DNA from: Fibrobacter sp. UWB16 | Lineage (GTDB): Bacteria; Fibrobacterota; Fibrobacteria; Fibrobacterales; Fibrobacteraceae | Length of the DNA stretch: 64,000 bases | Direction: 5' to 3' | Assembly: GCF_900215325.1 (NCBI RefSeq) | Contig: NZ_OCMS01000003.1 | Span: 310,001 to 374,000, forward strand | Part shown: piece after piece, positions 44,122 to 60,501 of the stretch | Position numbering within the stretch: position 1 is the stretch's first letter | Layout of the letters: each line of letters opens with the position of its first letter | Position numbers and translations under genes: made by a program | The notes under the pieces: model-generated | What the model was told of the DNA's origin: nothing | The model's database searches: none | Seen by the model: the letters and a program-made list of their open reading frames with translations, nothing else

Positions 44122-44155
44122 GGTAGTTTCCATTTTGGAAACTACCAGTTTTTTT
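44122..44155 (+). terminator. Terminator after glucokinase
   Basis: An 11-bp perfect stem TGGTAGTTTCC (44122-44132) with GGAAACTACCA (44138-44148), followed by a T run. Its last bases touch the hsdR stop codon, so it marks the border between the core genome and the defence island. Confidence 0.85.
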
Positions 44156-47100
44156 ATGAAATCACGCCGCGGGCCCAGCCGTAACCCTGTACCGCCATAT
44201 CGATAAAATGGTTCAATAACAAATTGCTTTTCGCATTGAACAAATCGATATCGTAGCAGTCCGGTAAATGCGGTGATTTGGGTGCATCCAGAACTTCTTC
44301 GATGGTACTCTTGACTTTGGCACGAGTCTGCTCGTCCTTATACCAATCGACAACAAGAATCTTTTGACGGTTGTCTTTCAACTTTTTGTACAAAGCTTTT
44401 GATGTCAACAGAACTTCTTGTTCTTGTGCATTTGTGAGTTTTTTGCCCATCACGAGCAAGTCGAAAATTTCCAATTCTTCGTCCGAAAGGCCCATCGTGC
44501 TTGCACGGGAATCTTCTTTCTTCAATTCTTCGACAAGCTTGATTAACTGTTCGTAATAATCTTCATTTTCCGTTCCGCCTGCATTGTAGCGGTTGATGAT
44601 ATTGCGGAACCTTTCGGAGAACTTGATGCGAGTGACGTTCCTGTTGATCATCTGTTGCAAGGCTTTTTCGATGAATTCCTTCATGTCGTTGATTTCGACG
44701 GCCTTGTACTTTGCCTGCTTGATTTCTTTACGCAAACCTTCGGCATCAATTTTAGAAAGGTCAATCAGTTTGGAACCACGCATGTATATTCCGTTTCTAG
44801 AGCTCTCGCGGAGTTCGGTTGCTCCATCAACTTTCACGCTTTCCGATGAAACGCTGTTATCCAAAAGGTCGCCCATGCGTTTGCGAGCCTTTTCAATTTT
44901 CTCGTCGTTTATAAGGCGGAAAAATTGTCCGTGCAAATAGATGAGTGCACTGAAAATCGGATTACTCCAGTCGCGTTCAAAAATTTCTGGCTTCGATGCT
45001 TCGTAAAGATTCAGCAAGGTGTTCAAAATGACTTTGAACTTTTCGGAATCTTCATCAATCGCGATGATTTTGTTATACGTTTCGCGAATATCATCCAACT
45101 TGTCAAATGTAGAAGCATTTTCTACAATCTTGTAAAGATCGATGTTTCGTTCCAAAAGGAACTTGTGGGCTTCTTCGATACAGGCATCAATGTAGCCAAT
45201 TAGTTCGTCGATGTTCTTGGCCGGGAATTCGCTTCCGTCATCGCCAATGGCGTATGCGGCCAAGGCTTGCTTCATGAATTTGAATACGTTTACATAGTCC
45301 ACGATGATGCCGCATGGTTTCCCTGGGAATACGCGGTTTGCTCTTGCGATAGCTTGCATCAGCGTGTGATTTTTCATGGGTTTGTCGAGGTAAAGCGTGC
45401 TGAGACTCTTTACATCAAAACCGGTAAGCCACATGGCACAGACAAAGACCAATTGCAAATTGTCGTTTGGATCTTTAAACCGATCTTCGATATCTTTACC
45501 TTCGGGGGTAATCGCATTCATCTTATTGCGGTGGGCGACGATATCCAAACCCTGTGCCTTGAATTTTTGAACTTCGTCCGCTTCTTCTGAAACGATAACC
45601 GCCATCTCGACTTTGTCCATGTAATTCAAGATTGCGGTTAAACGATTGTAATCGTCGCTATCCTTGACGACATTATTGCGTTCGATGGTCAGCGCCTTCT
45701 TTTCTTCTTTCCAATAGTGCTGAACCTTGTCGTACATCTTTACGGCGGTAAACTTATCGACGGAAACAACCATACCTTTGCCGAGGAATCCGCGACGCGG
45801 GAAATGGTGGGCGATATCCCTTGCAATCTTGTCGAGGCGGTCTTCGCGTTTGATGACTTCCAAAATGCGAGAACTGGAATTCTCCAACAGTTTCGCTTCG
45901 GCCTCGTTGAGGTTTTCGTCTTCGATAATCGTGACGACATCATCATCGAGGAAGTTATTCTGGAGACCGACTTCGGGAACGCGCCGACTGTAAAACAGCG
46001 GGACAGTGGAGCCGTCTTCTACGGATTGTGCAAAGTTATATTCCGAAACATAATCGCCGAACCATTGATTTGTAAGGCGTTTGCTGCCGAGTAATGGCGT
46101 GCCTGTAAACGCAATGAAGTTTGCGTTCGGCAACGCCGTTCGCATGTTTTCGGCTAAGGTCTTGTATTGCGTGCGGTGCGCTTCATCTACTAAGACAAAG
46201 ATGTCGTCACGGGTCGAAAGTACCGGATATTTTTTGCCATAGACGGGAACCTTCTTTTCGCTGGCTTCATTAGCAGACGATTCGGTTTTCTTCTTTGGCT
46301 TTTCGAAACCAAACTTGTGAATCAGCGTGAAGATGAAAGGCTTGTTTCCTCTCAAATAATCACGAAGTTGTTCGCCGTTTTTAGGTTGGCATTCGTCTTT
46401 GGGTCCGATAATTTCGGTACGCATAAAGTTTTTGTGAATTTGCGTATCGAGATCATCGCGGTCAGTGATGATGACGAAAGAGAAATTCCCATGGAACTTG
46501 CGATTAACCTTGCGGGCGAACATTGCCATTGAATAGCTCTTGCCGCTCCCTTGCGTGTGCCAGAAAACGCCGAGCTTGCCGTCTAGTTCCTTGCGGTTCT
46601 TGACCGCTTCGCACAAGTTGTTCACACCCATGAACTGGTGATTCTTGGCGATAATCTTGATGGACTGATTTTCGAACAAGATGAAGTTTTCGATGTAGTC
46701 GATAAGAGTTGCTTTGTTCAGCAATCCCTTGACCATGTACTCGGCACTGACGCCTTCGCCACGGATATACTTGCGGTCAATTTTATCGTCTTCGCTAGAC
46801 TTGAGCCATTCAAAGAAATAGTCGTAGCTGGCGTTGAAAGCACCAAGCTTTGTCTCGCAACCGTTCGAAAGTACGCAAATCTGGTTGAGTGCAAAAAGAT
46901 TCGGAATGTCCCTCTTGTAACTCGTCAAGTTCTTGTTGTAGGCTTCTTCAATTTTGACGGTGCTGTTCTTCAGTTCGATAAAGACGAGCGGCAAACCATT
47001 GACGAATATCAAAACATCGGGGCGGCGGTAATTGAACCGTCCCTGAATCCACATCTGCGATACTGCGGTAAACGTGTTGTTTTCGGGATTATCAAAGTCG

Positions 47101-47468
47101 ATAAAGGCAACATCGTCAAAATCTGACTTGCCATCCCTAATGAACTTCACACGGACGCCATCACGCAACTTTTTGTAGAGCGTGTAGTTGGTTGCGGTGA
47201 TATCTGTACCGGAATAGTCTCGTGACAGTTCGTGTGCAATCTCGTCTAGCTTGTCCGAAGGAATGTTCGGATTGAGCCTCGTGAGTGATTCCCGCAAAAT
47301 AATAGGCAAAACGCATTGCTTTTTATTCGCCCTGCCCGTACCATCATTGAGGTCTTCCGTTTTTTCTGGAGACGGATCGCAACGAACAACCTGATAGCTG
47401 TAAGGGGCTGCCTCCAGCATTTTCAGGATTGCCTGTTCAATATCGTCTTCAGAAATAAAGGACTTCAT
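44154..47468 (-). CDS. hsdR: Type I restriction enzyme R subunit
   Basis: A 1104-residue HsdR. The N-terminal nuclease domain has PLVFIELKNS (ExK of the PD-ExK site) preceded by NYRRPDVLIFVNG. The SF2 motor has Walker A HTQGSGKSYSM, the DEAH-type box VLVDEAHRTQ, IAFTGTP and, in the second RecA lobe, DKPMKNHTLMQAIARANR. The C-terminal part is helical. It translocates DNA and cuts away from the recognition site. I start at ATG 47468; the longer frame runs through noncoding A+T-rich DNA. It lies about 3.4 kb downstream of hsdS, after five inserted features, and needs its own promoter or a long transcript. Confidence 0.95.
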   Translation of the reverse strand: MKSFISEDDIEQAILKMLEAAPYSYQVVRCDPSPEKTEDLNDGTGRANKKQCVLPIILRESLTRLNPNIPSDKLDEIAHELSRDYSGTDITATNYTLYKKLRDGVRVKFIRDGKSDFDDVAFIDFDNPENNTFTAVSQMWIQGRFNYRRPDVLIFVNGLPLVFIELKNSTVKIEEAYNKNLTSYKRDIPNLFALNQICVLSNGCETKLGAFNASYDYFFEWLKSSEDDKIDRKYIRGEGVSAEYMVKGLLNKATLIDYIENFILFENQSIKIIAKNHQFMGVNNLCEAVKNRKELDGKLGVFWHTQGSGKSYSMAMFARKVNRKFHGNFSFVIITDRDDLDTQIHKNFMRTEIIGPKDECQPKNGEQLRDYLRGNKPFIFTLIHKFGFEKPKKKTESSANEASEKKVPVYGKKYPVLSTRDDIFVLVDEAHRTQYKTLAENMRTALPNANFIAFTGTPLLGSKRLTNQWFGDYVSEYNFAQSVEDGSTVPLFYSRRVPEVGLQNNFLDDDVVTIIEDENLNEAEAKLLENSSSRILEVIKREDRLDKIARDIAHHFPRRGFLGKGMVVSVDKFTAVKMYDKVQHYWKEEKKALTIERNNVVKDSDDYNRLTAILNYMDKVEMAVIVSEEADEVQKFKAQGLDIVAHRNKMNAITPEGKDIEDRFKDPNDNLQLVFVCAMWLTGFDVKSLSTLYLDKPMKNHTLMQAIARANRVFPGKPCGIIVDYVNVFKFMKQALAAYAIGDDGSEFPAKNIDELIGYIDACIEEAHKFLLERNIDLYKIVENASTFDKLDDIRETYNKIIAIDEDSEKFKVILNTLLNLYEASKPEIFERDWSNPIFSALIYLHGQFFRLINDEKIEKARKRMGDLLDNSVSSESVKVDGATELRESSRNGIYMRGSKLIDLSKIDAEGLRKEIKQAKYKAVEINDMKEFIEKALQQMINRNVTRIKFSERFRNIINRYNAGGTENEDYYEQLIKLVEELKKEDSRASTMGLSDEELEIFDLLVMGKKLTNAQEQEVLLTSKALYKKLKDNRQKILVVDWYKDEQTRAKVKSTIEEVLDAPKSPHLPDCYDIDLFNAKSNLLLNHFIDMAVQGYGWARGVIS

Positions 47469-47613
47469 TTTAAATCTCTGATTTAAATATAAATAAACAC
47501 CCATAGAAAAAATGCTACGAGTGTTAATGATTAGTTTTCTTTTGCGAAAATGAATTTGCTGAATTTCGGTTTCTTTGGAATGTTCCACTTTGGAAAGGCT
47601 AATTATGCTGCTC

Positions 47614-47714
47614 TTGACTTTCGTTAAATAAGAATGTATATTATTATAAAAGCATCGGAAAACACGCGCCGGCTGGTGATGCCGGGTCGCTGGAAGGTTA
47701 CCGATGTTTTTTTT
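47614..47714 (+). ncRNA. Candidate small RNA with promoter and terminator
   Basis: TTGACT (47614-47619), a 17-base spacer and TATATT (47637-47642) make a good sigma70 promoter. About eight bases later begins a compact RNA, roughly 47651-47714. An outer stem CATCGG (47653-47658) pairs with CCGATG (47701-47706) and runs into eight T residues; inside, GCG-CCGGC pairs with GCCGG-CGC around a seven-base loop. No plus-strand gene follows. The edges (CATCGG, ACACGC, GGTTACCGATG) recall those of cyclic-di-GMP-I riboswitches, but the two-arm core is missing. Function unknown. Confidence 0.5.
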
Positions 47715-47727
47715 GTATATAGGGCAT

Positions 47728-48195
47728 TCAGCGACTTTTGAGGAAGTTTATGGTGTCCTCGTATTTTATAGGATGGACCGGTGTCGCGTGAATGCCTTTC
47801 TTGGCATATCGAATCGATATTACATTCGTCCTTACAAGCTCTTCGCAACCGGCAAAGCCTATATCGTTGCTGAATTTGACGATTTCTTCTTTGATTTTTC
47901 CGGTTTTGTCGAAAACGACTAGGCCCGTCCCGATAGATTGTTGCACGATTTTATAAACATCGATGTTGAAATCGAAATAGGCAGCTCCGGCAAATCCTTT
48001 AGCTTTGGAAACCCTGTTGTAGTTTTCAAAAGTTTTTGTACCCACGATATGTTTTTTCTGACATTCTGGGTTTATGCGTTTTGAGAGATTTTCTTTTAAA
48101 AAAGTGGGCCACAGGACATATAGTTCGTGTTCTGAATAGATTCCCCTTGCTTTAGCTTGCTCGATTAGTTTTTCTATTGTTGTGTATAGATCCAT
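47728..48195 (-). CDS. Hypothetical protein in the type I RM locus
   Basis: A 155-residue protein I do not recognise. It begins MDLYTTIEKLIEQAKARGIY, which with LYVLWPTFLKENL resembles a small helical N-terminal module, followed by an alpha/beta part with TGLVVFDKTGKIKEEIVKFS. No signal peptide or membrane helix. The ATG at 48195 has no good ribosome site; a GTG at 48213 is an alternative. It lies between the AbiTii genes and hsdR on the same strand, flanked on both sides by structured noncoding DNA. A role in the defence operon is likely by position only. Confidence 0.55.
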   Translation of the reverse strand: MDLYTTIEKLIEQAKARGIYSEHELYVLWPTFLKENLSKRINPECQKKHIVGTKTFENYNRVSKAKGFAGAAYFDFNIDVYKIVQQSIGTGLVVFDKTGKIKEEIVKFSNDIGFAGCEELVRTNVISIRYAKKGIHATPVHPIKYEDTINFLKSR

Positions 48196-48231
48196 TGCAG
48201 AACACCAGTTCACAAACCTGTTGAATGACAG

Positions 48232-48430
48232 ATTGATGATCCCACGGAATGTGGGGGTGCTCTACGTTAATCGCCAGGGGGCCAGTTTCCCCATAGGGTG
48301 TATGCTGCCTCGAATTGTGAGCCTGTCGAGCGAACAAAGGGAGGTCGGCGTCAAGCAGAGAGTGAAACTACCTGCCCTGAATTTATCGGTGTCGGCAGGA
48401 TGGGTGCGATCGGGAAAGAATATACAACTT
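48232..48430 (+). ncRNA. G+C-rich structured noncoding block, possible RNA gene
   Basis: About 200 bases without a credible ORF, clearly richer in G+C than the flanking AbiTii genes. Visible plus-strand stems: CCCAC/GTGGG (from 48241), GGGG/CCCC around CCAGTTT, and CTGCC/GGCAG near 48370-48400. A single-stranded GCGAACAAAGGG lies between stems. Length and compact multi-stem layout resemble IscB-linked HEARO/omega RNAs, which also occur without their protein gene, but I cannot confirm family or strand. It stands between the third AbiTii gene and the 155-residue gene. Confidence 0.4.
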
Positions 48431-48470
48431 TAAAAGAGACTAGGCAAGGGGCTTCGTATTGCTCTTGCTT

Positions 48471-49304
48471 TTATTCTAAGATTTGACTGATTTGAGAAAT
48501 GATGCCTGAGGCAACCAAACTTCCGGTAATGTTTTGGCAAAGGGCTTCTATTTTATGCAGTAGCTTGCGAACACCTGTTTCATCTTTTTGGGTAACCATT
48601 TGCTTGATTTCGACAAGGTCTGACTTTAATTCGGCTTCCTGATTGTTTGTTAGGCGTAAGCTTGCGATATTTTGCAAAACTTGCTCTATTAAGTCGGAAA
48701 CTTTTTTGAAATCAAAGCTGTTATTATTGTTGATTGTTGCAGAAGAATTCGTCATCGAGCCGATGAAGTTTGATCCATTTATGTTTCCGTAGTTGTTTAT
48801 AATTGGAGTTCCCTTATCCGAATTCAAGGAAAACTTTCCTTCTTTGATTTTTGACGATTTCCATTCGTTAATTTTTTTTCTGACTTCGTTTTCAATTCTT
48901 TGAAGGAAAAATAACTTTATAACAGTTCGGTTCTTATAATCTCGAATATTTTTATCATCCTGTACTGGTGATACATAATCTTTTCCACTAGCAACAATAC
49001 TAGATATATCCTTGATTGGATTCCAGCAGGGAATGATAACAGGATTGCCAACTGCATATCTTTTGGCATCTGCTTTAATTAAGGGACCATCATACCAAAT
49101 GTCCAAAGTGCCATTTACCTGACGATAATCGGAAAGTTTTTCATTTTCTGCATATCCGTTTAATTCCCTTTCGCAAAATTTGGCGAATTTTTTGTCATCA
49201 ATAAGGTCGGCTATGGTACGGGCTTGCTCAAGTAAATCGGCAACAGGGGTTGACGATTTTGCACTATTGGTGATGAAATCTTCTATAAGTTTTGCGATGG
49301 ACAT
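48471..49304 (-). CDS. AbiTii-domain protein (third paralogue)
   Basis: A 277-residue protein. The N-terminal AbiTii-like domain is seen in ADLLEQARTIADLIDDKKFA, FCERELNGYAENEKLSDYRQ and the I/V-rich middle ending NEWKSSKIKEG. A Gly/Asn-rich hinge (NNYGNINGSNFIGSM) leads to a helical C-terminal domain of about 85 residues ending ITGSLVASGIISQISQIL. AbiTii domains occur in abortive-infection and other phage-defence proteins. It is the last of three tandem paralogues behind hsdS, eight bases after the second. Mechanism unknown. Confidence 0.78.
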   Translation of the reverse strand: MSIAKLIEDFITNSAKSSTPVADLLEQARTIADLIDDKKFAKFCERELNGYAENEKLSDYRQVNGTLDIWYDGPLIKADAKRYAVGNPVIIPCWNPIKDISSIVASGKDYVSPVQDDKNIRDYKNRTVIKLFFLQRIENEVRKKINEWKSSKIKEGKFSLNSDKGTPIINNYGNINGSNFIGSMTNSSATINNNNSFDFKKVSDLIEQVLQNIASLRLTNNQEAELKSDLVEIKQMVTQKDETGVRKLLHKIEALCQNITGSLVASGIISQISQILE

Positions 49305-49312
49305 GGATATGT

Positions 49313-50215
49313 TTATCGAATTGTTTTGAGGAAAGCGTCAATTTTATTGTAAATGTCTGAGCCGATGACGCTACAAGTTATGCTTTGTGCCCAGACGCCC
49401 AAGCTGTTGAGTAATGTTCCGATAGACTTAGAATCTTTTTGATTGATTTTTTGATCAATTTTTTCAATTTGTGTATTTAAAAGATTTCTGTCATTTTCAT
49501 CAACTGAAGGTGCTTTTATCAGCTCTTTTATAGATTCAAGAAGCTTTTTGGCCCCTTCGTAATCAAATTCTTTTACTCCGTTTGCGTTTAGAGTGGAGTT
49601 GATGGCTGATCCAACAACGTTTGATCCGTTAATGTTTCCGTAGTTGTTTATAATGGTCATATTTTTGGCGATTTCCTTTTCTTTTGTAGAAAATTCATAA
49701 TCTTCTCCGAGAATACCTTTCTGTTCTAAGTTAAGAGCCCAATCAAGAATTTGATTTTTTATGGTATTGAGAATTCTCACTAGTTGAGTTTTCGAAAAAA
49801 ACATTTTTATTTCATAACGATTTGGAATGCGAGCTGCCTCAATAAGAAACTGTTGCAATTCAAGGGGAATAATCATTGAAATTGTTTGTAAGTCTTTATT
49901 ATCAACGGCGGTTTGAATTTCGCTAATTGACATGGTGATTGGCCATGTTGATAATTCTTCAAAAGTTCCTTTTGATGGAAGCTGGATAGGTATCCATCCT
50001 CGCATTGGGTTTCTAGCCTTGAAAAAGACATTTGCATTTCTGTATTCAGGGACTTCCTTAGAGGTGGGATAACCATTAATTTCTTTTTTTAGGAATTCTA
50101 CCATTTCATCTTGATCTAGTTTACGAGCAATAAAATATGCCTTTTGACAAAGATCGCTAAACGAACATTTCGGATTTAAACATTCTTTCTGTAATTCTAT
50201 AACCAGCTTTGACAT
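49313..50215 (-). CDS. AbiTii-domain protein (second paralogue)
   Basis: A 300-residue protein with the clearest AbiTii pattern: VIELQKECLNPKCSFSDLCQ, KAYFIARKLDQDEMVEFLKK and EINGYPTSKEVPEYRNA. Residues about 190-215 are the hinge NNYGNINGSNVVGSAINST; the rest is a helical domain (AKKLLESIKELIKAPSV) ending VIGSDIYNKIDAFL. The ATG directly follows the stop of the first paralogue. The family suggests phage defence; no catalytic motif is visible. Confidence 0.8.
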   Translation of the reverse strand: MSKLVIELQKECLNPKCSFSDLCQKAYFIARKLDQDEMVEFLKKEINGYPTSKEVPEYRNANVFFKARNPMRGWIPIQLPSKGTFEELSTWPITMSISEIQTAVDNKDLQTISMIIPLELQQFLIEAARIPNRYEIKMFFSKTQLVRILNTIKNQILDWALNLEQKGILGEDYEFSTKEKEIAKNMTIINNYGNINGSNVVGSAINSTLNANGVKEFDYEGAKKLLESIKELIKAPSVDENDRNLLNTQIEKIDQKINQKDSKSIGTLLNSLGVWAQSITCSVIGSDIYNKIDAFLKTIR

Positions 50216-50872
50216 TTATTCTTTCCTTTGCGTTTGGATGCTTGAAATAGAATCGTTTAACACGCCGGCAAGATTTGAATTTGAAACATTACCATTGATG
50301 ATGATTTGGATAGAGGGAACATCTTTAACTTTACTTTGTTCTTCGCTAGAAAATTTAAGATTGTCTCCAAGAATACCTTCTTTTTCCAACTTTAGAGCCC
50401 AATCTAAAACGAGTTTGCGAACAATTTGTGGGATTGAAGCTAGCTGAGCAATAGACACGATATGATGGATGTTCATTGCTTTAGGCATATTTGTTGTTTC
50501 AAAGATTATTTGCTGAACTTCTGCAGTGGGGCGAATTTCTAAGGTTTCAGTTTTTGATAAGCTTAATTTTTCTATTTCTGTGATAGGTTCAATGACATTT
50601 CGTTTGTTTATGGGATTCTCTGAAGAAAGTGATATGGGAACCCATCGTTGGAAATTGACATCAAAAGCTTCTGTATAAATTATGATTTGACGATATAAGG
50701 GTAATTGAGTCGTGTCATCACTCTTGTATCCGGTCATTTCATTAGAACAGAATTCTGCCATGTCTTTGATAGACAATTTTTCGGCAATGGCGTATGCCTT
50801 GAGTAGCAGGTAATAGCAAGATACTTTTTCGTCAAGACATGCTTGCTGTAAGTCAAGAACCATTTTTGCCAT
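50216..50872 (-). CDS. AbiTii-domain protein (first paralogue, short)
   Basis: A 218-residue protein: VLDLQQACLDEKVSCYYLLL, KAYAIAEKLSIKDMAEFCSN and EMTGYKSDDTTQLPLYRQ define the AbiTii domain; WALKLEKEGILGDNLKF matches WALNLEQKGILGEDYEF of the second paralogue. It ends just past the hinge (INGNVSNSNLAGVL), so it lacks the helical C-terminal domain of its two neighbours. It starts nine bases after hsdS, in the same operon. A short form could work as a partner or regulator of the long ones, which is inference. Confidence 0.8.
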   Translation of the reverse strand: MAKMVLDLQQACLDEKVSCYYLLLKAYAIAEKLSIKDMAEFCSNEMTGYKSDDTTQLPLYRQIIIYTEAFDVNFQRWVPISLSSENPINKRNVIEPITEIEKLSLSKTETLEIRPTAEVQQIIFETTNMPKAMNIHHIVSIAQLASIPQIVRKLVLDWALKLEKEGILGDNLKFSSEEQSKVKDVPSIQIIINGNVSNSNLAGVLNDSISSIQTQRKE

Positions 50873-50881
50873 AATAATTAC

Positions 50882-52033
50882 CTATACGGCGAGTTTTCCG
50901 CTCATTAGGCGGGGTAAGAGCAGGTCGCGTTGTTTTATGAGGTTTTCATTTTGCTTTTTTAATGAATCAACCATTGCAAAATTATTTTTTGCAATTTCAT
51001 TAAATTTTTGACAGAGTTTCTTCGGCGGCATGACAAATTGCATTTTTGCAAAATTATTATATCTCAGTGAAGGTACTGTTGCACCTGTTGCCACAGACAG
51101 GAAATATTTTCTGTTCAATTTTAAAACGAAAAAGAGAAATTTTCCAATGGTGTTGTCCTTAGGCTCAATACAATAACATCTTTGGTGTAGATTAAATTTT
51201 CCCCAATAGTACCTTGGCATGAAAGATGTTCCTTCTCCTGGAACAATTATCGCCTCGCAATCTTTTATCCATTCGCTACTTTTCTTTATTTCCTGGGATC
51301 TATCAAAAAGCGGGTATTCGCCGTCTTCTTCTGCGTCTTCTCGATTGCATTTTCCCGTTGAAATGTTCGAGACATTCCCAAGTTTTTCTATTGTCCAACC
51401 TTTGGAAATCCCGTTTTCGATGGGGCTAGTTTCGTGGCCGGGGAATCGGAAGTGGACGAACCATTCTTTGTAAAGATTCTCCGCCATTTGTTCCAAGATT
51501 TTGATGCGTTTGATGTTGTTTTCTATCAGGTTGTCGTAGGCGGAAAGTACAGATGCGATTTTTTCTTGATTATGAAGGGGAGGCAAACAAACCTTTATTT
51601 TTTGTATTTTGTATATTCCGAGTTTTGGTTGTGCAGCTCCACCTGCTATGGTTTGCATTAATTCTTTGTATTGCTTTTGATTTAGTAAATAATAAATGTA
51701 TTTGCTATTGGCTTTGCCGTTGAATCGTGTTAATCTGACTGCATTTTCTGTTAAATTAAATCCATCAACATCCTTTTGCGCAAATCCTATATCACCAATG
51801 GATGCCCCAACTATGGTTATTGCAATATCGTTTTCATTGATGATATACTTTTTTATTTTGTTATATGTATTTTCTTCTAAATATATTAAGTCTTCTGTGT
51901 TTATATTGCCATTTTTTATATCCCTTGCTCGTATATAGGGATGTGATGTTTTATAATTAACAAAATCAAAGCCAAGAGGAATTCTTTTTCCACTTTTTAT
52001 TTCACATATGTCATTTATAGAGAATATTTCCAT
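50882..52033 (-). CDS. hsdS: Type I restriction enzyme S (specificity) subunit
   Basis: A 383-residue HsdS with two target-recognition domains. Conserved spacer helices are at about residues 155-195 (LPPLHNQEKIASVLSAYDNL, then IENNIKRIKILEQMAENLYK) and at the end (NENLIKQRDLLLPRLMSGKL). The TRDs (residues 1-150 and 215-330) set the two halves of the DNA target, which cannot be predicted here. It is shorter than average but both halves are complete. A+T content is higher than in hsdM, as usual for exchangeable S genes. I see no inverted-repeat S cassette nearby. Confidence 0.92.
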   Translation of the reverse strand: MEIFSINDICEIKSGKRIPLGFDFVNYKTSHPYIRARDIKNGNINTEDLIYLEENTYNKIKKYIINENDIAITIVGASIGDIGFAQKDVDGFNLTENAVRLTRFNGKANSKYIYYLLNQKQYKELMQTIAGGAAQPKLGIYKIQKIKVCLPPLHNQEKIASVLSAYDNLIENNIKRIKILEQMAENLYKEWFVHFRFPGHETSPIENGISKGWTIEKLGNVSNISTGKCNREDAEEDGEYPLFDRSQEIKKSSEWIKDCEAIIVPGEGTSFMPRYYWGKFNLHQRCYCIEPKDNTIGKFLFFVLKLNRKYFLSVATGATVPSLRYNNFAKMQFVMPPKKLCQKFNEIAKNNFAMVDSLKKQNENLIKQRDLLLPRLMSGKLAV

Positions 52034-52045
52034 TTTTATTTTTCC

Positions 52046-53785
52046 CTAAAATAACGCATTCATGTTCTCTGCAATCTGTTTTTCCAGTTTCTTTGCTTCG
52101 GCGCTCAGCTTAGCGAAATCGTCATTCAGTCCGAGCATCGTTTCCTTGAATTCTTCGGCGGTCATGCCGTCGTCTTCAATGACAACGCCCACATATCGGC
52201 CCGCGTTGAGCGAATAATCCTGGTCCTTGATTCCGTCTTCTCCTTCGATTTTTGCGACCTTGCAAAGGCCGATTACGTCTTGGTATTTTCCGTCCGGGAA
52301 CCGTTCGGTGAGCCAGTTGATTTGTGCCTGCCAATAATCCTTGATTTTGACTTCTTTGTTGTCGCTGTTTACGGGAGCGTTCTTGAGGTTTTCCTTGTAT
52401 TCCTTGACCAAGTCCTTGAACGCCTGCGTGTCGCCTTCGTATAGGCGGCTGATGATGGCGAGGTTTTTGATTTGTTCATCACTGAACTTGCGGTGCGCCC
52501 TGTCAACTTGGGTGAACACGTTTCGTGCGTCGATGAAAAGGATTTCGTCTTTTTTCTTGCCGCCCGCTTTTTGCTTGTCGAAGAACCAGAGCGTCGCGGG
52601 GAGCGTGACCGAGTTGAACATGTTCGAGGGCAGGGTGACCATCTGGCTGATGACGCCTTCTTCAATCATCTTCTTGCGGATTTCGAGTTCGCTGCCGCCG
52701 GCATCGCTTGCGGAATTCGCCATGACAAGAGCTGCCTTACCGTTTTCATTCAGGGCCGTCGCAAAGTAGCCAATCCACAGATAGTTTGCGTTGGGGACGG
52801 TTTCTTTCTTGTCCGAGGTCTTTTTGCCGCCTGCCTTAGATTTGTTTCTAGGAACGCCATAGGTGCTGAAACGTTCGTCTTCCTTGACTTTATCGACAAC
52901 AACTTCGTCCACATTGAACGGGGGATTTGCCATCACGTAATCGAATGCGCCGAATGCGTTGTAGGGGTCGCTGTAGAAAGAGTTTGCTTCGGTGATGTCG
53001 CCGCGGACATTGTTCAGGAGCAAATTCATCTTGGCGAGTTTGACCGTGTCGGGCTCTTTTTCCACGCCGTAGCAACGGAAAGACATTGTGTCATCTTCTT
53101 CGCTCTTGTTGTGCTTGTGCATGTAACGGGCCGCCTGCACGAACATACCGCCCGAACCGCAAGCCGGATCAAGGAATTTCTTGTCGTGACCGCTTGGCTG
53201 CAGGACTTCGACCATGTAACGCACGACTGTCGCTGGCGTGTAGAATGTTCCGCCGTCCTTGCCTTCGGATAAAGCGAAATTGCCCAGGAAGTATTCGTAG
53301 ATTTCGCCGAACAGGTCTATGCTGATATTTTCGGGAATGTCCTTAAATATGCGGACAATCTTCGAAAGCAAATCGGGCTCTTCTTCGGGAACGAGTTGCG
53401 CGTAAACATCCTTGGGAAGGACGCCTTCCATCTTTTCGTTTTCGTCTTCGATGGCTTTCATTGCACGTTTAACAAGAGTCGCTTTCTTGGCGTCGTCCGG
53501 AGCGTCGTTGATAAAGTCGAAGTAGGCGCATTCCGGCAAGTAGAAACCGCACTTTTCGATGGAGATTTCTTTGAGCGTGCGTGCGCGACGGGTGCCCTTG
53601 AGCTTTTCGAACTCAGCGTTGATTTCGTCTTTATGCTGTTTGTAAAGAATATCCGCATAGCGCAGGAAGATTAGGCCCAGAATGGGCTGGCCGTATTTAT
53701 TGGCGGCGAGATGCGCTCCAGCGCGGAGAATGTCTGCGGAATGCCAAAGGCGATCTTTCAAATTCTTGAGTTCAATATCAGTCAT
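52046..53785 (-). CDS. hsdM: Type I restriction enzyme M (methyltransferase) subunit
   Basis: A 579-residue N6-adenine methyltransferase. The N-terminal helical HsdM domain (LWHSADILRAGAHLAANKYG) is followed by the AdoMet-binding motif FLDPACGSGGMFVQAARY and the catalytic motif YVMANPPFNVDE; the block LFGEIYEYFLGNFA with GGTFYTPATVV before them is typical. It heads the minus-strand operon hsdM-hsdS-AbiTii. Its start faces the GIY-YIG operon across 417 bases. GC content is nearer the chromosome average than that of the AbiTii genes. Confidence 0.95.
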   Translation of the reverse strand: MTDIELKNLKDRLWHSADILRAGAHLAANKYGQPILGLIFLRYADILYKQHKDEINAEFEKLKGTRRARTLKEISIEKCGFYLPECAYFDFINDAPDDAKKATLVKRAMKAIEDENEKMEGVLPKDVYAQLVPEEEPDLLSKIVRIFKDIPENISIDLFGEIYEYFLGNFALSEGKDGGTFYTPATVVRYMVEVLQPSGHDKKFLDPACGSGGMFVQAARYMHKHNKSEEDDTMSFRCYGVEKEPDTVKLAKMNLLLNNVRGDITEANSFYSDPYNAFGAFDYVMANPPFNVDEVVVDKVKEDERFSTYGVPRNKSKAGGKKTSDKKETVPNANYLWIGYFATALNENGKAALVMANSASDAGGSELEIRKKMIEEGVISQMVTLPSNMFNSVTLPATLWFFDKQKAGGKKKDEILFIDARNVFTQVDRAHRKFSDEQIKNLAIISRLYEGDTQAFKDLVKEYKENLKNAPVNSDNKEVKIKDYWQAQINWLTERFPDGKYQDVIGLCKVAKIEGEDGIKDQDYSLNAGRYVGVVIEDDGMTAEEFKETMLGLNDDFAKLSAEAKKLEKQIAENMNALF

Positions 53786-54202
53786 AGGGGGTCTCGAGTA
53801 TTTGGGAGGAATATAGATTATTTGAGGGGAGATTGGGGAGTGTTTTTTTGAGGTGTCATGTGCATTTAAGGGAAAAAAGGTATATTGAATAAATTTTATA
53901 TTAGGTTGTATCCTCGGAGTACTTTTTCGCTCTATCTTGGTATTAATACAGCAGAATATTTTCAGAATGAAATTATGAAACCCACATGATTACTCAATCC
54001 TGAGATGAAAATTTACAAGATGACAGTTGACCCTGATACGTTTAAATTGATTGCATTTTGTAAGTGCAAATGGTGTATTTTTCGTTTTTAAAATAAATTT
54101 AGGCATAATTAATGAGTCATTTATCAGATTTTTTGTTAAATGATGTTTTTTATGTTATATTACTCTAAAAGGAAGTAAAACGAAATCTATTATGAGGTAA
54201 AT
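53786..54202. other. Divergent intergenic region, A+T rich
   Basis: 417 bases between hsdM and the GIY-YIG gene. Plus-strand promoter boxes are listed separately. A 28-codon frame (54005-54091, beginning MKIYKMTVDPDTFKLIAF) has a protein-like start but no clear ribosome site; it may be a gene remnant or chance. I see no other structure. Confidence 0.4.
54133..54161 (+). promoter_or_regulatory. Candidate promoter of the GIY-YIG operon
   Basis: TTGTTA (54133-54138), 17 bases, TATATT (54156-54161); GAGGT lies upstream of the ATG at 54203. It fits a sigma70 promoter about 40 bases before the first gene, in very A+T-rich DNA where chance matches are common. Confidence 0.5.
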
Positions 54203-54718
54203 ATGTCATATTCTTTTGATGTACATGGCCCTTTTTCTGTGCCGCTTGATAAAATCTCAACAAAGAAGGGAAAATCCCAATATTTTCAGGTTGCTTGCAA
54301 GGAAAAAATGAATGTTTTTTGGGATCAATGTGGGATGGCCGATGAAAAAGGATGCTATGTATTTATAAATAGTGTGGCAGGAGGCTCAACTCCAATTTAT
54401 GTTGGCAAGACGAATGTTGCGTTTAAGAATGAAATATTTACACCTCATAAAAGGGTACTTCTTAATCAATTTATAAATACAACTTCGAAAAAGGGGTTAA
54501 GGGTTTTCTTTATTACTCCTCAATCTAATGCTGATATGAAAAAAATCATTGATGAAATTGAAAGCTATTTAATAATTCAAGCGAAAAGAGCGAATGAAAA
54601 TTTATTGAATGAAAAGAAAACTGCTCCTAAGTGGTCTATTGCTGGTATATATGGTGAAACTAAAATTGGCAAGCCGTCAAAAGCTGTTTCTGAATTGAAG
54701 AAAAGCTTGAAATTTTAA
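54203..54718 (+). CDS. GIY-YIG-like nuclease domain protein
   Basis: A 171-residue protein with the pattern of the GIY-YIG nuclease superfamily: GCYVFI (residues 50-55) for the GIY strand, PIYVGKT (64-70) for the YIG strand, basic HKR at 82-84, and an acidic helix DEIESYLIIQAKRANENLL (117-135) holding the usual metal-binding Glu. N-terminal strands precede the core, as in some restriction-like members. It is first of a three-gene operon, 18 bases before the ATPase. Catalytic function is likely but not proven; Cys replaces Ile in the GIY motif. Confidence 0.6.
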   Translation: MSYSFDVHGPFSVPLDKISTKKGKSQYFQVACKEKMNVFWDQCGMADEKGCYVFINSVAGGSTPIYVGKTNVAFKNEIFTPHKRVLLNQFINTTSKKGLRVFFITPQSNADMKKIIDEIESYLIIQAKRANENLLNEKKTAPKWSIAGIYGETKIGKPSKAVSELKKSLKF

Positions 54719-54736
54719 TATGGAATAAGGATAGAT

Positions 54737-56938
54737 ATGCTTTTTAGTATCAATTGCATTGAAAAGATATCAATGGATGAAATTCCAATTAAAGAAAAAA
54801 ATAAGGTTGGAGAATGTGATGAAAACTTGTTTAAAGGACTTAAATCAAGAAGATATTTTCTTAATGATTTTTATTTTCATGACCAAAATGAGAAAGAACC
54901 TCGTATAAATACGCATAGAGCGCTTGATGAAAATTTTTTTGGACCACATATAAATGTTCAAGCTGTAGTTGGCGAGAATGGAAGTGGTAAAAGTTCTTTG
55001 ATGGAACTTATTTATATTGCTATAAACAATTTTTCTTACATGTTTGAACGTGGGCATGATAATGAACGCCCTGGTGCCGAATCGCTTTATTATGTTCCAG
55101 GCTTATTTGTTAGGGTTTATTTTTCTATTGGAAAGAAAATATATATACTAGAATCGAAAGGTTTGATCCTTGATTTATTCTGTAGAGACTATAGCGTAGA
55201 AAATTGCAAAATTGTTTCTAAAGCGCATTTTGTAATTAGTGAACATGAACTAGTTTCGCTAATGACAGATGAAGGAATTGCAAATTTAATTGAAGATTTT
55301 TTTTATACAATAGTAAGTAACTATTCTCTACAGTCATTCATTCCGACAAATTATATCCATGATGTTTATGTTTTTGAATCTGGTAGGGATAGAAAAATAG
55401 AAAAAGAAGATGCAGTGAATAATGTTTGGATAAATAGTATCTTTCATAAAAATGATGGCTATATTCGATCTATTGTATTAAATCCTTATAGAAATAACGG
55501 AAATATTGATATTACAAATGAACTGGCTCTTTCTAAAGATAGGGTTGCGGCATTGTTTCTTTGGGCTAAACAAAAAGGGTCTATTTATTTCAAACCTTAT
55601 ACATACTATAATTTAAGAATAGAGTTAAGACAGTCGTTTTTAAAAAATAAAATAAAGAAAATATGGAAACTAAAAGGTGATGAAGAAAAACAATTTGATG
55701 AAAAGTTTCAATCAGATGAAATGTGCTTAAAAATAATTAATTGGAAACTCGCTGAAATACTTAAAAATCATTTCGAGCTTAGTAAGGAAACCGATTATCA
55801 TGATTATAAAAAAAGAGCAATGCTCTATTTACAGCTTAAAATCATAACGATTGTGAATAAGTATGATTCTTTTTTAGGCTATAAAAATGTTGTGACGTTA
55901 GAAAAAAAATTTGATAAACCTATGATTGAATTTAATGGTGGAATTGGAAATTTGATTGTTGCACTGAATGATAAAGAGTCCCATGTTACAAAAAAAATAA
56001 TGAGAACTATTTGGTTCCTTAAATTGTCTAATGAAGCTGTTGACAGGATTTTTGCTAAAGATTGCTTATACAATGGTGAATTATATTTTGATGAATTATC
56101 CGATGAATGGATAGAAGAGTGTTGTGCTAAAATTGAGCAATCAAAAAAAGAAGGGAGGAAAATCGATATTAATGAAATGTCGGGCCCTTTCACGGAATAT
56201 AAGAAAGAAAAAATTCGAGAGTTTACGGATCCTGTTTGGATTGACCGAATTCTTCCGCCCTCACTTTTTCACTATGAATTATTTCTTGAAAAAGAAAAAG
56301 ATGTTCTTCCCTTTAATGGTTTAAGTTCTGGAGAACTGCAATTACTGGAAACCATATCCATTCATTCTTATCATATTGAAAATATTCTTTCTGCAAAAAG
56401 AGAGTATTATATAAATAGAAAAAAAAGATTCCATCCTAAGTACAGATGCGTTAATATGATTTTTGATGAAGCTGAAATGTGCTTTCATCCAGATTTTCAG
56501 CGACAATTTGTATCTCGAATGCTTGATTTGATAGTCTCAATGAAGCAAAATTGGTATGAAAGTGGTGGATGTTGTATAAACATCATCATATTGACTCATT
56601 CCCCGTTTATTCTTTCTGATATTCCTAACAGTAATATTTTGTATTTGCAAGATGGAAATGAGATTGATGTCGATGAATTGATTACATTTGGTTCAAATAT
56701 TAATGATTTGCTGTACCATAGTTTCTTTTTGGGTACTGGAGATAAAGGTTTTGTTGGAGAATTTGCAAAAAGTAAAATAAAGTCTTTAAGTGATTTTTTT
56801 ATAAATAAAAAGACTAAGTTGTATCCAAATAGTTCTGCAACTCCTGAATGGACTGAAAAATGGGCTAATTCATTTCTTGAAACAATTGTTGGTGATGAAA
56901 TGATAAAAAATGTGCTACGGCAGATAAAAGAATCGTAA
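54737..56938 (+). CDS. SMC/ABC-type defence ATPase (PtuA-like)
   Basis: A 733-residue cytosolic ATPase. Walker A VVGENGSGKSS (residues 77-87), a long insertion, then the signature loop NGLSSGELQLLETI (about 527-540), Walker B MIFDEAEMCFHPDFQ (about 573-587) and the H-loop IIILTHSPFIL (about 613-623). This is the OLD/AAA_21-like plan of ABC ATPases that drive nucleases in phage defence. Followed 15 bases later by an HNH gene, it resembles PtuA of Septu, though it is longer than typical PtuA. A+T-rich composition fits transfer. It probably senses phage infection and controls the nucleases. Confidence 0.78.
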   Translation: MLFSINCIEKISMDEIPIKEKNKVGECDENLFKGLKSRRYFLNDFYFHDQNEKEPRINTHRALDENFFGPHINVQAVVGENGSGKSSLMELIYIAINNFSYMFERGHDNERPGAESLYYVPGLFVRVYFSIGKKIYILESKGLILDLFCRDYSVENCKIVSKAHFVISEHELVSLMTDEGIANLIEDFFYTIVSNYSLQSFIPTNYIHDVYVFESGRDRKIEKEDAVNNVWINSIFHKNDGYIRSIVLNPYRNNGNIDITNELALSKDRVAALFLWAKQKGSIYFKPYTYYNLRIELRQSFLKNKIKKIWKLKGDEEKQFDEKFQSDEMCLKIINWKLAEILKNHFELSKETDYHDYKKRAMLYLQLKIITIVNKYDSFLGYKNVVTLEKKFDKPMIEFNGGIGNLIVALNDKESHVTKKIMRTIWFLKLSNEAVDRIFAKDCLYNGELYFDELSDEWIEECCAKIEQSKKEGRKIDINEMSGPFTEYKKEKIREFTDPVWIDRILPPSLFHYELFLEKEKDVLPFNGLSSGELQLLETISIHSYHIENILSAKREYYINRKKRFHPKYRCVNMIFDEAEMCFHPDFQRQFVSRMLDLIVSMKQNWYESGGCCINIIILTHSPFILSDIPNSNILYLQDGNEIDVDELITFGSNINDLLYHSFFLGTGDKGFVGEFAKSKIKSLSDFFINKKTKLYPNSSATPEWTEKWANSFLETIVGDEMIKNVLRQIKES

Positions 56939-56953
56939 TTTACAGGACCTACA

Positions 56954-57958
56954 ATGAGAAGAATTCTTATAACTCCAAAAATACAATCGATTGCTGATGA
57001 ATATTCAAATGAAATAATATCAAAATTAAAAAAAACGACAAAATTGACGCTGGAACAAGAAATAGATGAAATAAAAAAATCGCAATTACAAAATTGGAAA
57101 TTGTATGTAAAATACCTAAAAAACATAATTAAACTGTATGATTCTTTAGTAGTCTTGCATCCTAAATATTTTAAGTATTATTGGATTCGGTATTTTTCTT
57201 TTTCGAAAAAAATAGATATGGATAGTACCTTATGGAAAAAAGGTACGACTATAAAATTCCATAAAATGGTAGAAGATGCGATGGCGTATAAAAATGTTCG
57301 TGATGAAATAATAGTTCCTTTTATAAAAAGACTGGGCATCAAAACCTGTGTAAATTGCAATAGTGAATATATTTTATCCGCAAATAAAATTTCTTATTTA
57401 GATGATGGCAACTATAAAGTTGAATTGAAGGGTCGATATCAATTGGATCATTTTTGGGCGAAATCAAAATATCCCTTTTTGTCAATAACTTTTTTTAATC
57501 TTCAACCGTCATGTGGCTTTTGTAATTTATGGAAAAAAGAGAAAGATGGAAAATTTAATTTGTACACAGATTTTTACAAAAAAATAAATCCGTTTGTATT
57601 TTTATTAGATAAAAAAAGTCTTTTGAACTATTTGTTGAATTTAAATACGGACCAAATACATATTGAACTAAATAGCAAGGAACGTGGTTTGAAAAAAAAT
57701 CATGAAGAAGTTTTTTGCATTAATGAGATTTACAAACTTTTAAATGATGAAGTTGAAGAGCTGATTTGGAAAGTGAGAATATATAATGAATCTTTTGTTG
57801 GGCAATTGCAACAATGGATGAAAAATAAATTTGCGCATTGTCCTGAAAAGGATTTATTTCGATTTGTTCATGGTTTTTATCCTTGTGTAGAAGATGTTCA
57901 TAAAAGGCCCTTAACCAAAATGAAGCAAGATGTGGCAAAACAGTTGGGGCTTGTTTAA
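56954..57958 (+). CDS. HNH nuclease with zinc ribbon (PtuB-like)
   Basis: A 334-residue protein. The nuclease core is at residues about 130-195: CVNCNSEY, then QLDHFWAKSKYPFLS with the DH pair of the HNH motif, then NLQPSCGFCNLWKK; the four Cys make a zinc site. The 130 residues before it are helical and basic; the 140 after it are helical. HNH proteins partner ATPases in Septu and in retrons of the PtuAB type. It ends the three-gene operon. Longer than usual PtuB because of the N-terminal extension. Confidence 0.78.
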   Translation: MRRILITPKIQSIADEYSNEIISKLKKTTKLTLEQEIDEIKKSQLQNWKLYVKYLKNIIKLYDSLVVLHPKYFKYYWIRYFSFSKKIDMDSTLWKKGTTIKFHKMVEDAMAYKNVRDEIIVPFIKRLGIKTCVNCNSEYILSANKISYLDDGNYKVELKGRYQLDHFWAKSKYPFLSITFFNLQPSCGFCNLWKKEKDGKFNLYTDFYKKINPFVFLLDKKSLLNYLLNLNTDQIHIELNSKERGLKKNHEEVFCINEIYKLLNDEVEELIWKVRIYNESFVGQLQQWMKNKFAHCPEKDLFRFVHGFYPCVEDVHKRPLTKMKQDVAKQLGLV

Positions 57959-57991
57959 TATTACCCCCATACCACCTTTTCTTCACCTTTT

Positions 57992-58322
57992 TTATAAATA
58001 TCCGCAAGTTTTTTTCATCAATTCTTTTAGCGTATAGATTGCGTCGTTTTCGTTGCGAAATTCCGTTCTTGTGAGGTTTGGATGTCTCGACTGTTTGTTG
58101 TGTGGCGTTTAGAAATCATGCCACTTGGTTTTTGGACACACTAGAAAGTATATCGATTTCGCGGAGGATAAAACCTTGTTCGTGCAACAGATGTAGATTG
58201 TCGGTAGAGTTGTCGATAAACAATTCATAGAAGCGGCCTAAATAGTCGCTTTCAATTGTTTCTTCATAGAAGCAGACTGCGTTACGCAGGATTTTTTGTA
58301 TTTTACTTATACAAGATCTTTT
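57992..58322 (-). pseudogene. Remnant of a gene in two frames
   Basis: Two open stretches without start codons read like protein. One (58116-58322) encodes RNAVCFYEETIESDYLGRFY and ELFIDNSTDNLHLLHEQGF; the other (57992-58108) encodes SRHPNLTRTEFRNENDAIYT and LKELMKKTC in a different frame. Together they look like the frameshifted end of a lost gene. No family recognised. The rest of the 530-base gap (to 58488) shows nothing. Confidence 0.35.
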
Positions 58323-58488
58323 TTAAACTGAGAATTAAAAAGATGGACTTCGTGCATCTGCGGCACAATAGCGTCGTATTAAACAGGATTGTTGCGATGA
58401 ATTCTTCTATTTACGATGCAAAAATGTGCAACTATTAAGAAATACTTAATAGTTCAAAACGAACCCGAATGGTCGTGCATTCCTTGCC

Positions 58489-59547
58489 TTACCCTTCCTC
58501 TCGCTCATTCTTCAGTCTGTATCGCATGCTACGACCGCCTTTTTTATTGGTCTCGAGGATTCCTTTGTCCATGAGGCTCTGTATTTCGCGGAGGGCGGTG
58601 TCGTGGCTTGCGTTGAAGAGCGCTGCGGCTTCTTTTGCGGTAAAGGGCTGCGCGAGGCTGCCTGCCATGATTTCGTCGATGAGCTGCTGTTCGCGGGCGC
58701 TGAATGTGTCGTTGGCGTGGGCGCTGCGGAATTGGATGCGGCTGATTTCAGAGGCGAAAAGCTGTTCGCTATCTTTGATGGCGTCTCGCATCATTTGCAG
58801 GAACCATAAAATCCATTCGGTGAGGTCACCGCTTGCGGCCTGCGTGCGTGCGAGAATCTTGAAGTATTCACTTTTGTGAGTGTTAATTTGTTTGTTTAGT
58901 GCGTATTGGCAATGCGTCGTGTTTTCGGTGCGGGCGAGTTGCATCGCCGTGATGGCGCGGGCGAGTCTGCCATTTGCGTCGGCGAAGGGGCGGATCGTGA
59001 TGAACCAGAAATGTGCAATTGCGGCCTTAATCACCCCATCTATATTTGCGCTTTCGAACCACGATAAAAAGTTTTCCATTTCGCTTTGAAGGCGTTCCGG
59101 ATTCGGGCCTACAAAATGGAGCGTCTTGGGAGCGAAATCGGGGGCGGTCGCGTCAATGGTCGTTTGCACTTCGCTGGGTGATTCGCGGAACTTTAAGACT
59201 TTGTTCTGACCCATCGCGGAATGCCAGTTGAAAAGGCGTTCTTCGGTGAGTGGCTGCGAGGCGTTTTGGATGGCGCCTAGATAGTTCTTGATGTAGTTTT
59301 GCGAGCCTTTGCTTTTGAGTTCCACTTCGGCGAGTGTGCTTGCCGTGTCCAGTGTGTAGCCGTCGATGGCGTAATTGGCAACGATGTCTTCGGCGAGGAG
59401 TTTTGCTTCGATGTCCTTGAGTCCGCAGATTTGCATGATTCCGATGAGCTTGCCTTCTTCAAGGCGCGTCTGCCCAAGCGCTTGGAGCACCTTGGGAGAA
59501 TCGAAGCGGAACCGCGTCCAGTCTGGGAATTGGTGGATGTAAAGCAT
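58489..59547 (-). CDS. Fic-fold protein with altered active-site motif
   Basis: A 352-residue protein of the Fic family with an N-terminal DUF4172-like part and a C-terminal winged helix (FTAKEAAALFNASHDTALRE, LMDKGILETNKKGGRSMRY). The active-site loop reads FITIRPFADANGRLAR where active Fic enzymes have HPFxDGNGRxxR: the catalytic His is Arg (codon CGC) and the first Gly is Ala. AMPylation as usually understood is therefore doubtful. Many such genes are DNA-binding regulators as well as toxins. It stands alone at the right edge of the defence island. Confidence 0.85.
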   Translation of the reverse strand: MLYIHQFPDWTRFRFDSPKVLQALGQTRLEEGKLIGIMQICGLKDIEAKLLAEDIVANYAIDGYTLDTASTLAEVELKSKGSQNYIKNYLGAIQNASQPLTEERLFNWHSAMGQNKVLKFRESPSEVQTTIDATAPDFAPKTLHFVGPNPERLQSEMENFLSWFESANIDGVIKAAIAHFWFITIRPFADANGRLARAITAMQLARTENTTHCQYALNKQINTHKSEYFKILARTQAASGDLTEWILWFLQMMRDAIKDSEQLFASEISRIQFRSAHANDTFSAREQQLIDEIMAGSLAQPFTAKEAAALFNASHDTALREIQSLMDKGILETNKKGGRSMRYRLKNEREEG

Positions 59548-59631
59548 GGTCTTTTCTCAAATATATTTCTTTTTCCGGCGTTATTTGGCGCGCGCGTTTC
59601 AATGCTCCGTTGAATTTGATAAATTTAAACT

Positions 59632-60501
59632 ATGCAGAAAATTGATACTTGGTACAAGGCTGAGGGCAATTGTCCCGATGAAGAATATGAAATTGCAAGC
59701 TACCTGCTTTTCGAGGCGGGTGTTGCGACGCTCGAAGAACTCGACCCGGTGACCGTTGGCCGCACGGAGTTCTGTTTTTACACGGGCGACAAGGCGGAAC
59801 GTGACCGCATCGTGGCGGAATTTCCGCAGTACAACTTCACGGTGACGGAGGAGCCTGCAAAGGATTGGGACAAGTGGTGGCGTGACCGTGCGCAGCCGGT
59901 GGCTGTGAGCGAGCACCTTTGGGTGCGTCCACCTTGGGTGGAGTTCACGCCGGAAGATCCTGAAGCGGTTGTCTTGGAACTTGAGGCAAAGACTGCATTT
60001 GGCACGGGCGAACACGAGACGACGAGTAGCTGTGCTGCGCTCATGGAAAATATTGATTTCAAGGGCAAGACGGTTCTCGACATCGGTACGGGTACGGGAA
60101 TCCTCGCGATGTTTGCTCGTCGCAAGGGCGCAAGCCTTGCTGTGGGTACGGAAATCGACCCGCTCACGATTCCCTGCATTGCGGAAAACTTTGAACGCAA
60201 TGGTTTTGGTGAAAGTGACTGCGTGCTCGGATTCCTGGATGCGTTTAAGGATGGAACAAAGTTCGACGTGATTCTCTGCAACATGATCCGCAGTGAACTT
60301 TGGCCGCTTCGCGACGACATCGAAGACTTGCTCGCCGAAGGCGGCGAACTCATCATCAGCGGTCAGCTTGTCACTGAAAAGGATTACATCCTCAAGTGGT
60401 TCGAAGAAGCCGGCTTTAAAGTCTCCGTCGAACGTGAAAAAGGGGAGTGGTGGAGTGTTTTGGCGACAAACGCAAAAGGCGAGAGTCGCGACCAAGCGTA
60501 G
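59632..60501 (+). CDS. prmA: Ribosomal protein L11 methyltransferase
   Basis: A 289-residue PrmA: an N-terminal substrate-binding domain (EEYEIASYLLFEAGVATLEE) and a C-terminal AdoMet-dependent domain with TAFGTGEHETTSSCAALMEN and VLDIGTGTGILAMFARRKGA. It trimethylates lysines and the N-terminus of L11. Catalytic residues look normal. The last residues (KGESRDQA) extend into a 35-base direct repeat, so the original stop may have differed. Confidence 0.93.
   Translation: MQKIDTWYKAEGNCPDEEYEIASYLLFEAGVATLEELDPVTVGRTEFCFYTGDKAERDRIVAEFPQYNFTVTEEPAKDWDKWWRDRAQPVAVSEHLWVRPPWVEFTPEDPEAVVLELEAKTAFGTGEHETTSSCAALMENIDFKGKTVLDIGTGTGILAMFARRKGASLAVGTEIDPLTIPCIAENFERNGFGESDCVLGFLDAFKDGTKFDVILCNMIRSELWPLRDDIEDLLAEGGELIISGQLVTEKDYILKWFEEAGFKVSVEREKGEWWSVLATNAKGESRDQA

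Follow-up and report, generated by a model that had tools for sequence, protein, structure and literature searches.

The window considered here is a stretch of 64 kb from the genome of Fibrobacter sp. UWB16 (3.56 Mb), and its subject is a set of three tightly packed genes that lie beside a type I restriction-modification (RM) locus. A sequence-only reading took the three for a new variant of the defence system Septu: the ATPase (PtuA) and HNH nuclease (PtuB) of that system, joined by a GIY-YIG nuclease in the third position, so that two effectors would work under one ATPase. The open reading frames in question, and the locus they adjoin, are as follows.

54203..54718, + strand: gene 1, encoding P1, 171 amino acids (aa), GIY-YIG-like, of a rare, mobile and unannotated family
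54737..56938, + strand: gene 2, 733 aa, a PtuA-like (PDC-M62A) ATPase of the SMC/ABC type
56954..57958, + strand: gene 3, 334 aa, a PtuB-like (PDC-M62B) HNH nuclease
44154-53785, - strand: the type I RM locus, adjoining the three genes

The observation is right, and in part it was well interpreted. The three genes are real and share a strand, with 18 bases between the P1 gene and that of the ATPase and 15 between the latter and the HNH gene. Their G+C contents (0.33, 0.30 and 0.28 in order, with 0.22-0.27 at third codon positions) set the stretch apart from its surroundings at 45-53% and from the adjoining HsdM gene at 0.50. The motifs that had been named in all three proteins are there. What is not supported is the idea of a Septu type whose third member is a GIY-YIG gene.

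Genes 2 and 3 are a Septu-type pair, belonging to the PADLOC candidate family PDC-M62. A comparison of defence finders met identical protein sets that one tool named PDC-M62 and the other Septu (PMC11811056). In the PADLOC search, gene 2 hits PDC-M62A at 2.7e-39 and PtuA models at 1.5e-12 at best; for gene 3 the values are 1.5e-38 with PDC-M62B and, at best, 2e-7 with PtuB models. Gene 2 also matches AAA_15 at 6e-10. The ATPase contains an IFDEAE stretch, and the HNH protein has the motif string CVNC...DHF...NLQPSCGFCN. The conserved positions, judged over 20 homologues of the ATPase and 30 of the HNH protein, are these.

54971..54994, + strand: Walker A GENGSGKS of gene 2, residues 79-86 (G79, N81, G82, G84, K85 and S86 each in at least 90% of homologues)
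56321..56335, + strand: ABC signature LSSGE of gene 2, residues 529-533 (S530, G532 and E533 invariant)
56453..56470, + strand: Walker B NMIFDE of gene 2, residues 573-578 (D577 nearly invariant, E578 invariant)
56594..56605, + strand: H-loop THSP of gene 2, residues 620-623 (T620, H621, S622 and P623 invariant)
57347..57358, + strand: first zinc knuckle CVNC of gene 3 (C132 and C135 invariant)
57446..57451, + strand: HNH motif D165-H166 of gene 3 (both invariant)
57497..57526, + strand: N182 of the HNH motif and the second zinc knuckle CGFCN of gene 3 (N182, C187, C190 and N191 invariant)

These motifs are more than chance: among 20 to 30 homologues the motifs of the ATPase, the four cysteines and the residues of the HNH site show little or no variation. 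The fold of the HNH protein agrees. A structure model built from 30 sequences reached a pLDDT confidence of 91. Foldseek alone found no significant match for it (best E 2.6), and a second look with VIA-align placed PtuB in all of the top five entries, at Z scores of 8.6 to 10.0 (10.0 for retron Ec78, 9.6 for E. coli Septu, 8.6 for retron Ec83), the next row falling to 2.7. The likeness to Septu, which PADLOC calls type I, thus extends from the order of the genes and the motifs of the ATPase to the four-cysteine HNH protein, its modelled fold and the recurrence of the two-gene unit across phyla. The window's pair differs in its longer ATPase, which places it on the PDC-M62 branch, and in the low sequence similarity of its HNH protein to PtuB proteins that have been studied experimentally (phmmer E 0.04).

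The pair recurs in several phyla. The ATPase was found at 63 loci of public genomes, spread over Fibrobacterota, Bacteroidota, Spirochaetota and a small number of other groups, with the HNH gene recognised next to it in 47 and with several of the remaining loci cut by contig ends. Among 151 relatives of the host it occurs in 11 genomes, and the host carries a second ATPase-HNH pair on another contig. That second pair (L144, contig 6, 5501-11438), and likewise the one at L159, comes after another AAA ATPase and a 410-aa protein whose start is HNH-like, an arrangement that looks like two Septu-like units in tandem. In about a third of the 59 loci with upstream sequence, a gene on the same strand ends within 60 bases of the pair. 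By eye these genes vary, from Hachiman-like helicases and an HsdS to HerA-like ATPases that come after SIR2-like genes, UvrD-like helicases and other AAA ATPases. The pair therefore often follows some other gene, which here is P1, and other defence systems may frequently have it as the tail of their operon. At three loci from three genomes (L036, L039 and L053, upstream of about 4800) it begins 0 to 9 bases past an apparent Hachiman helicase gene.

If P1 belonged to the pair, the trio would be expected to recur. It does not in these data: a relative of P1 stands next to the pair at none of the 63 public ATPase loci, searched at the level of profiles, and at none of 15 loci from the family to which the host belongs, the second pair of the same genome included (the two sets of loci partly overlap). 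Within the genomes searched, then, the pair is nowhere else found with this gene beside it, the very outcome that the sequence-only reading had named as telling against a three-gene system, and the idea of two effectors under one ATPase is left unsupported. No description of a Septu type that includes a GIY-YIG gene turned up, as had been suspected.

What, then, is P1? None of the models of Pfam, NCBIfam, PADLOC or PHROGs recognises it, nor does Pfam match the members of its family. Its motifs are GCYVFI, PIYVGKT and IESYLI. Three features of its sequence are these.

54350..54406, + strand: GxY...YxG core of P1, residues 50-68, GCYVFINSVAGGSTPIYVG, aligning with GVYIF...PIYIGKA of the UvrC N-terminal domain, and with UvrC in hhalign as well
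54431..54433, + strand: Glu77, invariant, standing by eye where canonical GIY-YIG nucleases have their catalytic Arg
54560..54562, + strand: Glu120, invariant, a candidate metal-binding catalytic Glu

Eleven residues are invariant in 15 members (G50, Y52, P64, Y66, G68, F74, E77, F79, K83, E120 and N136), and the residues first noticed do not vary across 13 to 15 homologues, which again is more than chance. They keep the landmark order of GIY-YIG or URI nucleases (PF01541; UvrC N-terminal domain): GxY, YxG, then Glu (E120) and Asn (N136). The best sequence match of the P1 profile in the PDB is the UvrC GIY-YIG domain, exactly at the GxY and YxG landmarks (E 0.13), and hhalign gives the P1 family and UvrC a probability of 36%. 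A divergent relative, L148, provides the other link. It is matched by the P1 family profile at 3.3e-9 (35 bits) and also passes the Pfam cut-off for PF01541, with 23.9 bits where 22.6 are needed. Because of the UvrC landmarks and of L148, a GIY-YIG ancestry of P1 is well supported though not proven. The label given to gene 1 in the sequence-only reading stands as GIY-YIG-like, through remote homology by way of UvrC and L148/PF01541. Canonical GIY-YIG genes of the same genomes have Arg after YxG, and in all 15 members of the P1 family Glu77 appears to replace this catalytic Arg, a placement made by eye from FKxExF of P1 against the UvrC stretch LKNRVRSYF. Besides this P1 has an additional invariant F, F and K, and N- and C-terminal parts of its own.

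The family is rare. It was found in 16 of 168 genomes of Fibrobacterota, while 395 genomes of Bacteroidota yielded two members, one of them clear and the other divergent, and 247 of Spirochaetota a single divergent one. A search of plasmids, with other members as query, added one alphaproteobacterial plasmid, from Polymorphobacter. The 348 genomes of Bacillota yielded none apart from an apparent UvrC; this match was rejected, as the frame is of 619 aa and the profile covers only its GxY/YxG region. Viral contigs and phages gave no P1.

The neighbours of P1 are varied. Its nearest relative, 67% identical and its sister in the tree, has an AbiH/SIR2-like gene before it and a TmtA (Tiamat) gene 15 bases after it. 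DNA homology between this locus and the window covers P1 and its 15 leading bases, nothing more. Other relatives adjoin type III RM (L136 in Fibrobacter, L147 in Bacteroidota), type I RM (L142, L149), PrrC-like PDC-S06 with Shedu (L134, L138), PDC-S56 (L141) and PDC-M65 (L197, Polymorphobacter), and the divergent L196 comes after a SIR2/Dsr2-like gene. The remaining relatives have FISUMP-type or unremarkable neighbours. In several FISUMP-type loci a conserved protein of 77 aa lies just upstream of P1 (L129 1423-1656, L132 6231-6464, L137 8312-8545). Close pairs of P1 genes show a ratio of nonsynonymous to synonymous substitution (dN/dS) of 0.09 to 0.10, so P1 is under selection whatever its neighbours. 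Copies broken by frameshifts or stops occur in two Fibrobacter genomes (L138 7582-8100 and L137 7890-8276). L128 (2518-10846) and L158 (7055-12403) share a PsyrT-like RecQ helicase and a DprA-like gene but differ in the cargo that comes next, AbiH/SIR2-like, P1 and Tiamat-like in L128 and the ATPase-HNH pair in L158, which suggests a variable slot.

I propose that the locus is made of two separable units in a defence island, a known Septu-type pair and an independently moving, defence-associated GIY-YIG-like P1, and would put the probability of this at about 0.62. The proposal is built on the composition of the units, their family membership, their conservation and the absence of linkage elsewhere; the mechanism, co-transcription and the activity of P1 I infer. 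That P1 would be a separate mobile accessory of defence is suggested by its nearest relatives, which adjoin quite different defence genes.

There are precedents for the work of the pair. In Septu and in retrons of type I-A the ATPase and the HNH protein jointly cleave tRNA-Tyr or nicked DNA and halt the growth of phage, and mutation of either active site abolishes defence in the systems studied (PMC13096335, PMC11555353). The need of anti-phage activity for both active sites was shown for E. coli Septu (PMC13096335), which represents a branch other than PDC-M62. By homology, the PtuA-like ATPase of the window would assemble with the PtuB-like HNH protein, and the assembly would sense infection in an ATP-dependent manner. 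The ATPase would then license the HNH protein to cleave nucleic acid (tRNA or DNA in the studied relatives), stopping the production of phage. P1, judged by its dispersal, would move as a single gene, kept by purifying selection beside many unrelated defence systems. It is most likely an auxiliary enzyme or binder of nucleic acid that acts separately. Its place immediately upstream of the pair would be an accident of this locus, and it is possibly co-transcribed with the pair.

Four points weigh against the proposal of two units. P1 ends 18 bases from the ATPase gene, with a plausible ribosome-binding site, as fits a joint operon. Since P1 is rare, a joint system of recent origin might escape notice. 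About half of the P1 loci have no defence gene among the neighbours tested, which are a subset of all neighbours. Finally, a single-sequence AlphaFold prediction of P1 failed, with a pLDDT of 37 and no usable fold.

One rival is a true three-gene Septu variant, in which the PtuA-like ATPase would control P1 as a further nuclease effector. One strand, tight spacing and a similarly low G+C in all three genes are what such a system would show, and P1 retains a catalytic-type Glu. Set against its absence from every other pair locus searched and the unrelated systems that adjoin its relatives, these features leave the three-gene variant the least probable of the rivals. P1 might instead be an antitoxin or regulator that gates a toxic system downstream, in the manner of retron Ec78, where reverse transcriptase and RNA-DNA control PtuAB (msr-msd and reverse transcriptase neutralise it; PMC11555353). 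P1 does lie directly before large ATPase-type genes in three contexts, the window, L128 and L134 (gaps of 18, 15 and 33). The notion that it is always the first gene of an operon had to be dropped, however, for it is not first in L136, L141, L142 or L147. Moreover, L138, 93-96% identical to L134, has a broken P1 and yet its AAA_13 and Shedu neighbours are open, while in L134 it is P1 that is open and the AAA_13 gene that is split. Nearly all pairs do without P1, and no DNA-binding motif was recognised in it. A gating role is accordingly hard to credit, if slightly less so than a second effector.

It would also be understandable if P1 were a passenger or selfish gene, homing-like for example, that accumulates in variable islands and plays no part in defence. 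Its sporadic presence in many species, the FISUMP-type neighbours at the roughly half of its loci that are not visibly defensive, and the two broken copies all suit a passenger. A dN/dS near 0.1 does not, nor was any P1 seen inserted within a gene or intron. Counting near-identical loci once, a PADLOC-positive neighbour occurs at about 10 of 18 independent P1 loci and at 1 of 10 ordinary GIY-YIG genes of the same phylum (Fisher p 0.02, in a post hoc comparison that is small and of unequal search depth). A passenger is still unlikely, though the easiest of these three rivals to entertain. A bolder form of the proposal would be that P1 stands for a GIY-YIG family not yet described, whose active site has been rewired from Arg to Glu and which, in at least three phyla, serves as a plug-in accessory to many unrelated defence systems, among them type I and type III restriction and systems of the Tiamat-like, PrrC-like/Shedu and Septu-like kinds. 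I regard this as possible but doubtful.

Known systems help to place the two units. Retron type I-A (Ec78/Eco7), which PADLOC lists as Septu type II, consists of reverse transcriptase, PtuA and PtuB and so resembles the window in having an extra gene before the same kind of pair. Here no reverse transcriptase was found upstream of the pair, the gene in that place being P1, which does not recur beside the pair. An Rfam scan of 50000-59700 for a retron-like RNA gave no match at gathering scores. As a small GIY-YIG protein near defence genes, P1 recalls the single-gene GIY-YIG defence candidates (PDC-S14 and, in the literature, PD-T4-3, PD-Lambda-1 and FS_GIY_YIG), although it matches no PADLOC model; in L142 a relative of P1 has a PDC-S14 gene next to it. 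Menshen, another candidate for comparison because of its three genes, was rejected, since a DUF262 protein and an OLD-type nuclease are among its components (PMC10952713).

The locus shows that tight spacing within a defence island does not amount to a joint system, and so corrects a tempting reading. It places the Fibrobacter pair in the Septu-type family. The main remaining interest lies with the P1 family, rare, unnamed in the libraries used and recurring beside very different defence systems. Should it prove to be a shared accessory, it would offer a testable example of a defence module that serves many systems.

HsdR (44154) marks one end of the island around the three genes and a Fic gene (59547) the other. 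Within the type I RM operon, HsdS and HsdR have between them a tandem array of three AbiTii-family genes (277, 300 and 218 aa; 48471-50872, - strand), two of which additionally match AbiTi at their C-terminal ends. The Fic protein, of the SoFic type (PADLOC 1.1e-41; 58489-59547, - strand), closes the island. Outside it, as named by eye, an open reading frame for a ROK-type sugar kinase comes before and a prmA-like one after.

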